DNA from: a bacterium
GTDB lineage: Bacteria; CG2-30-53-67; CG2-30-70-394
Length of the DNA stretch: 11,759 nt
Assembly: GCA_024278555.1 (NCBI GenBank)
Contig: JAJRSX010000059.1
Coordinates: 1-11,759 of the forward strand
Direction of reading: 5' to 3'
The notes beneath the pieces were generated by a model that saw nothing but the letters and a program-made list of their open reading frames with translations, did no database searches and had not been told where the DNA came from. The position numbers and the translations under genes are program-made. Each line of letters starts with the position of its first letter. Within the stretch, counting starts at the first letter, position 1. Positions 1 through 8,503 of the stretch are shown here, piece by piece.

Positions 1-787
1 AGAAGACCCGCTCCTGGAGAAAGCGGAGGAGCTTGATCTGCATCGACACCGCCATCTCGCCGATCTCGTCGAGGAAGAGGGAGCCGCCGTTGGCCATCTC
101 CACCTTACCCGCCTGGCGCGACGCGGCGCCGGTGTAGGCGCCGCTCTCGTGGCCGAAGAGCTCGTTCTCGATGAGCTCCGCCGGGATCGCCGCGCAGTTG
201 ATCGCAATAAACGGCGCCTCGGCACGCGGCGACGCCCGGTGGATCGCCCCGGCCACCAGCTCCTTGCCGGTGCCCGACTCGCCGGTGATGAGGATGTTGG
301 CGCGGCTCGCGGCGACCGCGTGGATCGTCTCCACCACCTCGTGGATCGCCGGGCTGCGGCCGAGGATGCCGAACCGCTCCTGGCCGGCCGACTCCGCCTC
401 CGCGCTCGGACCGCCGCGGGCGGTGAGCAGGGCGTGGCGGAGGATCGCCACCATCTCATCGAGGTCCACCGGCTTGGTGAGGTAGTTGGCCGCGCCCCCC
501 TTCATCGCCGCCACCGCGTTATCGATGGAGCCGAAGGCGGTGATCACCACCACCGGCACGAAGGGGCGGGTGCGCTTCACCCACTGGAGGAGGTCGAGGC
601 CCGACCTCCCCGGCAGGCGCATATCGGTGAGGACGAGATCCACCTCGGTCTCGGAGAGCTTGTCGACCGCCTCCTCGTAGCTCCCCGCCGTCTCCACCGT
701 GAACCTCTCATTCTTCAGGTGGATGGAGAGGACCTTGCGGATATTGCGTTCGTCATCGACCACCATGATTCGCCGCATCACCGTCAC
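1..787 (-). CDS. sigma-54-dependent NtrC-family response regulator (3' end outside window)
   Basis: The visible 262 residues show an N-terminal receiver domain (about 5-122) followed by the start of a sigma-54-activating AAA+ domain. The receiver has the acidic pair D11/D12, the likely phosphorylated D55 in LTDMRLPG, T83 and K105. The AAA+ part has Walker A GESGTGK (169-175), the sigma-54 contact loop as GAYTGA (216-221, Tyr in place of the usual Phe) and Walker B LFLDEIGE (237-244). The rest of the AAA+ domain and the expected C-terminal helix-turn-helix lie beyond the left edge. I place the start at the GTG at 787, which overlaps the kinase stop (GTGA) and has AGGGAG six bases upstream; an ATG at 778 is the alternative. 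The overlap implies translational coupling to the kinase, its probable phosphodonor. It is the only sigma-54 activator seen near three sigma-54 promoter matches, so it is the natural candidate regulator of the sox operon. Family is secure; the targets are inferred. Confidence 0.93.
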   Translation of the reverse strand, partial: MTVMRRIMVVDDERNIRKVLSIHLKNERFTVETAGSYEEAVDKLSETEVDLVLTDMRLPGRSGLDLLQWVKRTRPFVPVVVITAFGSIDNAVAAMKGGAANYLTKPVDLDEMVAILRHALLTARGGPSAEAESAGQERFGILGRSPAIHEVVETIHAVAASRANILITGESGTGKELVAGAIHRASPRAEAPFIAINCAAIPAELIENELFGHESGAYTGAASRQAGKVEMANGGSLFLDEIGEMAVSMQIKLLRFLQERVF

Positions 788-2235
788 TGTGGGCTCCCTT
801 GTACGAGTCGCAGGCGGATCGCGAAGGTGGTCCCCGGAGCCGTCGACTCCAGCTCGATCTCCCCACTCTGCGCCACGATCATCTTATAGACCGTGGCCAG
901 GCCGAGACCGGTACCGTCGCTCTTGGTGGTGAAGAAGGGCTGAAAGATCTTCTCTGCATCCGCCGGGGCGATCCCCGGGCCGGTGTCGTGGATGCGCACC
1001 ACGAGACGATCGTCTTCGACGCCGCCGCTCACCCGGAGGGTGCCGCCCCCCTCCATCGCCTGCATCGCGTTGAGGAAGAGGTTCATGAACGCCTGCTTCA
1101 ACAACCGCGGGTCGGCGAGGACCAATGGCGTGCCATCGAGCTCCTGGACTACCTCGACCCCCGCCTCCTCCAGATCGGGATCGAGCAGCTCCACCACCCG
1201 CCCTACCACCTCAACCACACCGCACGGCCCCACCTCCGGCCGCGGCGTACGCGCGAAACGGAGAAAATCTTCGGACATCCGGGTGAGCTCCTCCGCCTCC
1301 TCCTTGATCACCTCGATGTAGTCGCCGGCGTCGGCCGGGTGGTCCACCTTCTGCAGGCCGGTGATCGCGCCGCGGATGGCGTGCAGGCTGTTGCGCGTCT
1401 CGTGGGCGATCTGGGCCGACATCTGGCCGATGGTCGCCATGCAGGTGAGGCGCTGGCGCTCCTCAGAGAGGCGGCGGAACTCGCGCAGGTAGCGACGGGT
1501 GTTGGCCACCATGCGCAGGAACGAGTCACGCAATCGTAGGGTCTCGTCCCGGTCGCCATCGACCGCCGGCCGCTCCTCATCCGGGTAGATCTCCCGGTCG
1601 AACCGCTCCGCCTCGCGCGCCAGATTAACGATGGAGCGGGTCAGGGCGTTGGAGATGACCACCGCGCCGCCGATGCCGAGGGTGAAGATGATCAGGGCGA
1701 GGGAGAGGAGCTGACGCAGGGTCTGGCCGAGCTCCTGGTCGACGTGCGCCCACTCGGCACCTTGGTCGAAGGTGACCCGCGCCACCCCGAGGAGGTCGCC
1801 GCCGATCTCCACCGGCATGATGAGGGCGCCGGGACGTTCCTCGATCTCGCGCCGCGTCGCCTTGTCCTGAGCCATGAAGTCGGCGAGCTCCGGGTCCACC
1901 GCGCCGATCGCCGAGACCGCGTCGGCGGCGACCACCACCGCCCGCCGATCGGCGATCTGCACCCCGCTCACCCCACCGGCGGCGGTGAGCTGGCCGATCT
2001 GGTCCATGAGGAAGCCGTAGTCCCGCGACAGGAGGGCGTCGGAGGCGGTGAGGGCGAGCTTCTTGACGATCGAGACGTGGAAGTCGCCGAGCTGTTCCAA
2101 GAGCTTCCCGCGCACCGTCGTCATCACCACCGCGCTGACCGTGAGGAAGATGGCGACGATGAGCACCACCACGTAGACCACCCCCTTGGTCCGGATGCTC
2201 GTGCGCCGATTGAGGTCGTACAAAGCGGCCACCAT
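784..2235 (-). CDS. membrane sensor histidine kinase, partner of the NtrC-type regulator
   Basis: A 483-residue sensor kinase. Transmembrane helices at about 19-39 and 174-196 flank a periplasmic domain of roughly 130 residues, followed by a HAMP-like linker (about 197-245). The dimerisation/phosphoacceptor region carries H278 in HETRNSL, where Ser replaces the usual Pro of the HExxNPL pattern. The ATP-binding domain has the N-box around N385/N389, G1 DTGPG (417-421), F-box FQPFFTTK (431-438) and G2 GTGLGL (441-446). The ATG at 2235 has GAGGAG nine bases upstream and sits six bases after the stop of the binding-protein gene. The stop overlaps the start of the response regulator. The tight binding protein-kinase-regulator order suggests that the secreted binding protein presents a ligand to the periplasmic domain, as PhnD-like domains do within the TtrS/ThsS kinases that sense tetrathionate or thiosulfate. 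Kinase function is certain from motifs; the ligand is not known. Confidence 0.95.
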   Translation of the reverse strand: MVAALYDLNRRTSIRTKGVVYVVVLIVAIFLTVSAVVMTTVRGKLLEQLGDFHVSIVKKLALTASDALLSRDYGFLMDQIGQLTAAGGVSGVQIADRRAVVVAADAVSAIGAVDPELADFMAQDKATRREIEERPGALIMPVEIGGDLLGVARVTFDQGAEWAHVDQELGQTLRQLLSLALIIFTLGIGGAVVISNALTRSIVNLAREAERFDREIYPDEERPAVDGDRDETLRLRDSFLRMVANTRRYLREFRRLSEERQRLTCMATIGQMSAQIAHETRNSLHAIRGAITGLQKVDHPADAGDYIEVIKEEAEELTRMSEDFLRFARTPRPEVGPCGVVEVVGRVVELLDPDLEEAGVEVVQELDGTPLVLADPRLLKQAFMNLFLNAMQAMEGGGTLRVSGGVEDDRLVVRIHDTGPGIAPADAEKIFQPFFTTKSDGTGLGLATVYKMIVAQSGEIELESTAPGTTFAIRLRLVQGSPQ

Positions 2236-2241
2236 CTTGCT

Positions 2242-8021: not shown

Positions 8022-8475
8022 ACGAGATCTCCTTTCCAGGTTTCGGCGGGGCTACACGCCCCCCGTTGCGATACCGCTCACTGCACACCGCGTGGACCGC
8101 GGGCACGTGCTCACACACCACATCCTCGAAATCCTCCTTGGTCAGCACGCCGGGAACCCGCAAAATCACGCGGTCGGCTTCACCGAGAAAGAGTATCGTC
8201 GGCGTGCGATCCACCCCATACCGGCGACTCAAGGCCCTCCCCGTCTCTTCAAAGGGGGTGACCGGCAGCCGGCCGGCGATATTGATCCGTACCGGCCGCA
8301 CCCGCTCCCCGAGGAGCTGCTGGAGGTCGGCCTCGCGGACCACCGCCTCCATCTCCTCACACCAGTGACACCCCTCTTGATAGAAGAAGAGCATCCGGGT
8401 GTGCTCGCCCGACGGAGCCACACCCCCCCCGAGGAGGAAGAGCATCACCAGGGAGGTCGAGAGCAGGCCGTTCAT
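7828..8475 (-). CDS. soxW: SoxW-like periplasmic thioredoxin; C-terminal tail probably frameshifted
   Basis: The first 140 residues are a thioredoxin-fold protein: a hydrophobic leader (1-20), strand MLFFYQEG, the redox motif CHWC (36-39), and the cis-proline loop TPT at 91-93. Such proteins in sox operons (SoxW) are thought to keep thiols, probably SoxY, reduced. After about residue 138 the frame reads on through soxX for 194 bases, giving a low-complexity tail unlike the family. One G fewer in the G6 run (8059-8064) would stop the protein at TAG 8052-8054, at about 140 residues and 30 bases before soxX. A sequencing error, real frameshift or unselected overlap could explain this. The ATG at 8475 has no Shine-Dalgarno and lies about two bases after the predicted sigma-54 start, so the mRNA may be nearly leaderless. 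A G8 run (8423-8430) codes for the end of the leader peptide. Fold is clear; the symbol rests on context. Confidence 0.75.
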   Translation of the reverse strand: MNGLLSTSLVMLFLLGGGVAPSGEHTRMLFFYQEGCHWCEEMEAVVREADLQQLLGERVRPVRINIAGRLPVTPFEETGRALSRRYGVDRTPTILFLGEADRVILRVPGVLTKEDFEDVVCEHVPAVHAVCSERYRNGGRVAPPKPGKEISYEREGEESPGRSGDGVWHPGRALDVPGAAGGPGSGCSPGTEGDDYQVIGKLCRLSQVSQRGVSR

Positions 8476-8487
8476 GACCCCGACCCA

Positions 8488-8503
8488 TGCAAGGGTCGTG
8501 CCA
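8488..8503 (-). promoter_or_regulatory. sigma-54 (-24/-12) promoter of the sox operon
   Basis: On the minus strand the sequence is TGGCACGACCCTTGCA, a full match to TGGCACG-N4-TTGCA with the invariant GG (8502-8501) and GC (8490-8489) ten bases apart. The predicted transcription start is near 8477, two bases before the soxW ATG. The direction, position and quality of the match make this the most convincing regulatory site in the window. It requires RpoN and an AAA+ activator; a gene for one is at the left edge. Confidence 0.88.

Follow-up and report, generated by a model that had tools for sequence, protein, structure and literature searches.

A separate PhnD-type binding protein, a kinase and an NtrC-type regulator probably link sulfur-oxyanion sensing to a sigma-54 sox promoter

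SoxR (ArsR-type) and CsoR-type proteins are one-component repressors of sox, and ThsR and TtrR are LuxR-type regulators, not of the sigma-54 type. Here we analyze a bacterial contig of 11,759 nucleotides (JAJRSX010000059.1, G000:C28; "the window" denotes this entire contig, which belongs to a 3.06 Mb genome in 211 contigs), in which a sox cluster is followed by genes for a secreted PhnD-type protein (X), a histidine kinase (S) and a sigma-54 regulator (R), together termed the XSR module. How bacteria perceive thiosulfate when they grow by Sox has been worked out in few cases, and the receptor of TspS/TspR itself is only proposed. Two articles (PMC6335251, PMC12194929) describe TspS/TspR, known from Acidithiobacillus caldus and other chemolithotrophs, as a sigma-54 two-component system controlling sox, with thiosulfate as its proposed signal, sCache_3_2 as the sensor domain reported for TspS (PMC12194929) and TGTCCCAAATGGGACA as the TspR activator site at the A. 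caldus sox-II cluster (review PMC6335251). In the AioX/AioS/AioR (arsenite) and ArxXSR systems, a separate PhnD-type protein acts through a histidine kinase on a sigma-54 activator and an RpoN promoter (PMC5908839, PMC3834237). In ThsS and TtrS, the PhnD-like domain that senses thiosulfate or tetrathionate is part of the kinase itself (PMC5408782).

An initial annotation, made from the sequence alone, had read sox genes followed by a secreted PhnD-type protein, a membrane kinase and a sigma-54 activator, and family profiles recovered all of them in place. The minus strand carries, in order:

7828–8475, minus strand: soxW-like periplasmic thioredoxin with a CHWC motif (Thioredoxin_2, E 5.9e-12; open reading frame list)
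7638–8021, minus strand: soxX (TIGR04485, 86 bits; cut-off 61)
7030–7557, minus strand: soxY, C-terminal GGCGG (Pfam SoxY, E 2.4e-35; translation)
6637–6972, minus strand: soxZ (Pfam SoxZ, E 5.9e-32)
5739–6590, minus strand: soxA (TIGR04484, 225 bits; cut-off 110)
4019–5689, minus strand: soxB (TIGR04486, 788 bits; cut-off 550)
3766–4018, no strand assigned: soxB–X spacer with strong predicted hairpins, a possible attenuator or unit boundary (fold −167.8 kcal/mol)
2242–3765, minus strand: X, a secreted tandem PhnD-type binding protein of 507 amino acids (Phosphonate-bd, E 9.5e-77, residues 30–265)
784–2235, minus strand: S, a membrane histidine kinase of 483 amino acids (HisKA and HATPase_c; transmembrane segments 19–37 and 176–194)
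1–787, minus strand: R, an NtrC/AtoC-type response regulator, 5' part only, about 262 amino acids (Response_reg, E 1.3e-28; Sigma54_activat, E 2.9e-50)

Together with the regulatory elements between soxW and a divergent porin gene, this arrangement suggests that the XSR module probably senses a sulfur oxyanion and activates both sox and the porin. The elements on the porin side of soxW are as follows:

8488–8503, minus strand: sox sigma-54 promoter TGGCACGACCCTTGCA, perfect consensus
8531–8548, no strand assigned: activator site (upstream activating sequence, UAS) TTGTCCCGATTCGGACAA, of the TspR-site pattern, centred at −62.5 from the predicted sox start
8692–8707, plus strand: porin-side activator site TGGACACATCTGAACA, centred at about −105
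8734–8742, plus strand: porin-side activator site TGTCCATTT, at about −67
8779–8794, plus strand: sigma-54 promoter of the divergent porin, CGGCACGTCTCTTGCT, one mismatch to the consensus
8897–9973, plus strand: outer-membrane porin by family match (Porin_4 / Porin_O_P), with an equivalent divergent place in a related genome, G002; a proposed regulon member

By gene type, layout and site, the locus resembles TspS/TspR: a histidine kinase and a sigma-54 NtrC-type regulator adjoin sox, a sigma-54 promoter precedes the first sox gene, and a TGTCC-N6-GGACA sequence matching the published TspR site lies upstream of that promoter. It differs in that no PhnD-type protein is described for TspSR, that TspSR lies upstream of sox whereas the XSR genes of the window lie downstream, and that the divergent porin here has a sigma-54 promoter of its own. 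With AioXSR, ArxXSR and ArrXSR the locus shares a PhnD-like periplasmic protein, a histidine kinase and a regulator encoded as separate genes, a target that carries a palindromic UAS and an RpoN promoter, and a retained hallmark cysteine; the AtoC/NtrC type of regulator and the RpoN promoter are those of the Aio and Arx branches. The AioXSR-type target, however, is an arsenic molybdoenzyme rather than sox, and AioX-type proteins have about 270–300 residues, whereas X has about 507, is tandem and differs in most other aligned pocket residues. ThsS/ThsR and TtrS/TtrR likewise use a PhnD-like fold that is proposed to see sulfur oxyanions, but there the fold is fused to the kinase and the targets are reductases. 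Control of sox is also the task of SoxR and CsoR-type proteins, which differ in being one-component repressors; no ArsR-type SoxR or CsoR-type repressor was seen in the window. As precedents the initial annotation had named only TtrS and ThsS; it missed AioXSR and ArxXSR, in which the PhnD-type protein is already separate and the kinase acts on a sigma-54 activator (PMC5908839, PMC3834237). Its description of the circuit as undescribed may hold for a PhnD-type XSR module on sox but not for sigma-54 control of sox, which TspS/TspR already represents. No paper joining such a module to sox was found in a literature search that covered few subscription papers and thus gives weak negative evidence. 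What appears to be new is the combination of sigma-54 sox control, as in TspS/TspR, with X–S–R sensing, as in AioXSR; each part is known separately.

The full-consensus sigma-54 promoter that had been reported before soxW is confirmed as a perfect match, and none of 200 shuffled sequences produced one. The consensus occurs in 21 copies genome-wide versus none for a reversed control pattern, and rpoN was found in this genome and in all eight of the examined genomes of its class. Two intergenic promoters are seen, versus 0.002 (window) and 0.072 (G002) expected in shuffles. A chance origin of the sox promoter was rejected on the basis of these shuffles, the genome-wide control pattern, the intergenic shuffles and the conserved spacing described below. 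The predicted sox start at about 8477 is 2 nt ahead of the soxW ATG (window 8475–8477), and the sox transcript is accordingly predicted to be near-leaderless. The activator site had not been mentioned before: TGTCCCGATTCGGACA at 8532–8547 has the TGTCC-N6-GGACA form, and the perfect 18-base form, TTGTCC-N6-GGACAA, occurs as a single copy in the 3.06 Mb genome, at 8531–8548. A relaxed form, TGTNC-N6-GNACA, was partly derived from these loci, so that its low background is no independent test; the independent tests are therefore the TGTCC-N6-GGACA form known from the literature and the base-exact spacing.

The conserved linkage that the initial annotation had proposed to look for was found: the sox–X–S–R order is kept in two genomes (G002 and G003) that belong to another family of the same class. 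In G002 (L024), the porin and soxW-X-Y-Z-A-B are followed by X–S–R and then by yeeE, which encodes a YeeE-type sulfur transporter; the cluster of G003 was pieced together from contigs C93 (L025) and C68 (L074). X shares 52–55% identity with its orthologues in these genomes, and S shares 56–57% with the genes at the same place. The sigma-54 sites upstream of sox are aGGCAtGTGCTTTGCA in G002 and aGGCAtGCCCTTTGCA in G003, with the −24 GG and −12 GC retained in all three genomes. The corresponding activator sites, TGTCCGGAAATGTACA in G002 and TGTTCGGAAATGTACA in G003, follow the relaxed form, and in each of the three genomes their centre lies exactly at −62.5 from the predicted start, which in turn precedes the soxW ATG by 2, 2 and 6 nt (window; G002, L024 4190–4192; G003, L074). 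In each of the three genomes, a separate sigma-54 promoter precedes the porin gene (the G002 copy is at L024 3688–3703, minus strand); the porin-side sites, at −105/−104.5 and −67/−66, agree in position within 1 nt, and TGTCCATTT is conserved at about −67 in every case. These two divergent sigma-54 promoters with conserved site spacing suggest a two-promoter regulon comprising sox and the porin. In both G002 and G003, yeeE lies downstream of R and is preceded by an activator site and a weaker sigma-54-like box. Because the synteny and the base-exact promoter layout are shared by three genomes of two families, the wiring of the local XSR module to the sigma-54 sox promoter is supported; the earlier suggestion that the module switches on soxWXYZAB thus holds for the wiring, with the ligand and the regulation itself put forward as a proposal.

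X is separated from S by 6 nt and S overlaps R, so that X–S–R looks like one unit. S has two predicted transmembrane helices flanking a periplasmic segment of about 138 residues. R comprises, within the window, a receiver and a sigma-54 AAA+ domain with a GAYTGA loop; the gene is cut at window base 1, the contig end, and its C-terminal helix-turn-helix (HTH) region lies beyond it. The G002 regulator is full-length and carries HTH_8; over the stretch that both have, it is 68% identical to R. Since a hairpin-rich spacer of about 250 nt splits soxB from X, the XSR genes may form their own transcription unit, apart from sox. The spacer (3766–4018) contains very stable inverted repeats. A simple consensus scan found no T-tailed terminator or sigma-70-like site in it; in the soxB–X spacer of G002, the scan found one sigma-70-like and one terminator-like site.

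In the proposed circuit, secreted X would bind a small periplasmic oxyanion, with thiosulfate or a different reduced oxyanion of sulfur as the likeliest ligand; ligand-loaded X would dock on the periplasmic part of S and activate it. S would then phosphorylate the NtrC-type R, which would bind the TGTNC-N6-GNACA sites and drive sigma-54 RNA polymerase at the two divergent promoters. One promoter would serve soxW-XYZAB, whose transcript would begin on or right next to the start codon of soxW, and the other the outer-membrane porin; in the sister family, the promoter of the YeeE-type sulfur transporter would be a third. The sequence itself shows the genes and their order, the promoters, the activator sites with their conserved spacing, and the conservation of these across two families, whereas the ligand, the X–S contact, the phosphotransfer, the binding of R to the sites and the activation of sox are inferred. 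With a separate soluble binding protein, the ligand is directly testable, sulfur sensing is tied to the well-studied arsenic XSR sensors, and the module could serve as a thiosulfate-sensing part that does not depend on ThsSR.

The nearest solved relatives of X are PtxB, PhnD and ArrX. In the pairwise alignment, the DLVFIC segment of X stands opposite DLAFIC of ArrX, whose cysteine falls at the WIC of AioX; through ArrX, C85 of X thus aligns with AioX Cys106, an assignment made by the distance from Tyr88 and to Tyr131. AioX, ArxX and ArrX are reported to share Cys106, which PhnD lacks (PMC5908839). All three orthologues have C85, and likewise the only other cysteines of X (90, 142 and 432). Among the other pocket residues of AioX (Tyr88, Tyr131, Ser161, Ser163, His192 and Asp210), Tyr131 is the sole match, kept as Tyr112; the remaining positions change to Ser67 (Tyr88), Cys142 (Ser161), Gly144 (Ser163), Asp172 (His192) and Glu191 (Asp210), in a mapping through pairwise PtxB, ArrX and AioX alignments that is approximate in the second lobe. 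Together, the kept cysteine and the changes at most other pocket positions suggest that X resembles AioX as a sensor but binds another ligand. A tentative extension, to which we give somewhat less than even weight, is that X, S and R have branched off within the AioX/ArrX sensor family as a new line, with a receptor of two domains, a rebuilt pocket (Cys in place of the oxyanion-loop Ser), sulfur-oxyanion sensing and a small sigma-54 regulon of sox, porin and sulfur transporter. On that reading, sulfur oxidation would have its first XSR circuit, and XSR modules would be seen to move between energy substrates. The second half of X gives PBP_like/SBP_bac_11 matches, which are weak. An AlphaFold model of X from three sequences reached a pLDDT of 40 and was unusable.

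The same genes could also be read as a plain TspS/TspR system, in which sensing is done by the kinase itself and the PhnD-type gene plays no part in it, for instance as an orphan uptake-type binding protein. The sigma-54 and activator-site logic is identical in kind to that of TspSR, which in A. caldus is described without a PhnD gene, and S has a periplasmic segment of its own that weakly matches (E 0.066) sCache_3_2, the domain reported for TspS; this match appears in the window kinase and not in those of G002 and G003. Against this, all three genomes, from two families, have X in place between soxB and S; X lies 6 nt from S in an X–S–R unit with overlapping S and R, and it retains the sensor-type cysteine; no ABC permease or ATPase is among the genes identified in the window, L024 and L025. 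We regard this explanation as unlikely. Still less probable is that the signal of the module is arsenite, arsenate, phosphate or phosphite and that sox is coupled to it. PtxB, PhnD and ArrX bind phosphite, phosphonate and arsenate, and C85 occupies the hallmark position of arsenic sensors, but the pairwise alignment retains only Tyr131 of the other AioX pocket positions, the neighbours are sulfur genes, and no aio, arr, ars, pst or phn transport gene was identified in the 11.8 kb.

Several points weigh against the XSR module as the sensor and activator of sox. Because the HTH region of R lies outside the contig, the pairing of R with the sites rests on location and on the TspR precedent, and other NtrC-type regulators of the genome could use them. 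Only the TGTCC-N6-GGACA form tests the site independently, the relaxed form being partly derived from the loci. The soxB–X spacer permits separate transcription of the XSR genes, which is compatible with the proposed circuit, with or without autoregulation. A global NtrC-family regulator might own the promoter and sites while the adjacent module controls something else, and the genome does contain many other sigma-54 sites and kinases. The perfect activator site nevertheless occurs once in the genome, at this place, and in the loci examined the relaxed sites lie at the cluster's own genes, beside a syntenic XSR module; we consider this the least probable of the alternatives. Control of sox and the porin by the local XSR module remains the favoured explanation.

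Among 386 sampled genomes, full-length orthologues of X or S were found in G000, G002 and G003 only; since SoxB itself was present in just 8 of the 386, this does not establish that X and S are rare. In the five other SoxB genomes, the stretch around sox (10 kb for L058) was without an X, S or R relative, a full-consensus sigma-54 site or a perfect activator site. A scan of genome contigs with two short seed patterns matched G003 only and says little on spread, and on plasmids nothing beyond incomplete matches to PhnD or kinase domains was found. When 117 genomes from the class that includes G133 were searched for a composite promoter, two matches were returned, which were judged from their count to be chance. 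Contig G003:C52, chosen by a weak activator-site match, was dismissed as the sox upstream region, the correct contig being C68.

The sites preceding yeeE are at L024 13443–13538 and at about 4036 in L025, and G003 has two tandem yeeE copies. Proteins of 844–1004 residues with a C-terminal PhnD domain and an apparent chemoreceptor-like N-terminus (L007–L010, L020 and L021, in G002–G007) occur class-wide; the hallmark cysteine is absent in the displayed alignments of such fusions. soxCD is absent beside the sox cluster, which is of the truncated sox type. Downstream of the porin, 10219–11616 (plus strand) encodes a YeiH-type putative sulfate exporter, with a TIGR00698 match below its cut-off. 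In the window, the soxW-like frame overlaps soxX by about 190 nt (7828–8021) in a different frame, whereas in G002 the soxW stop lies about 50 nt ahead of soxX.

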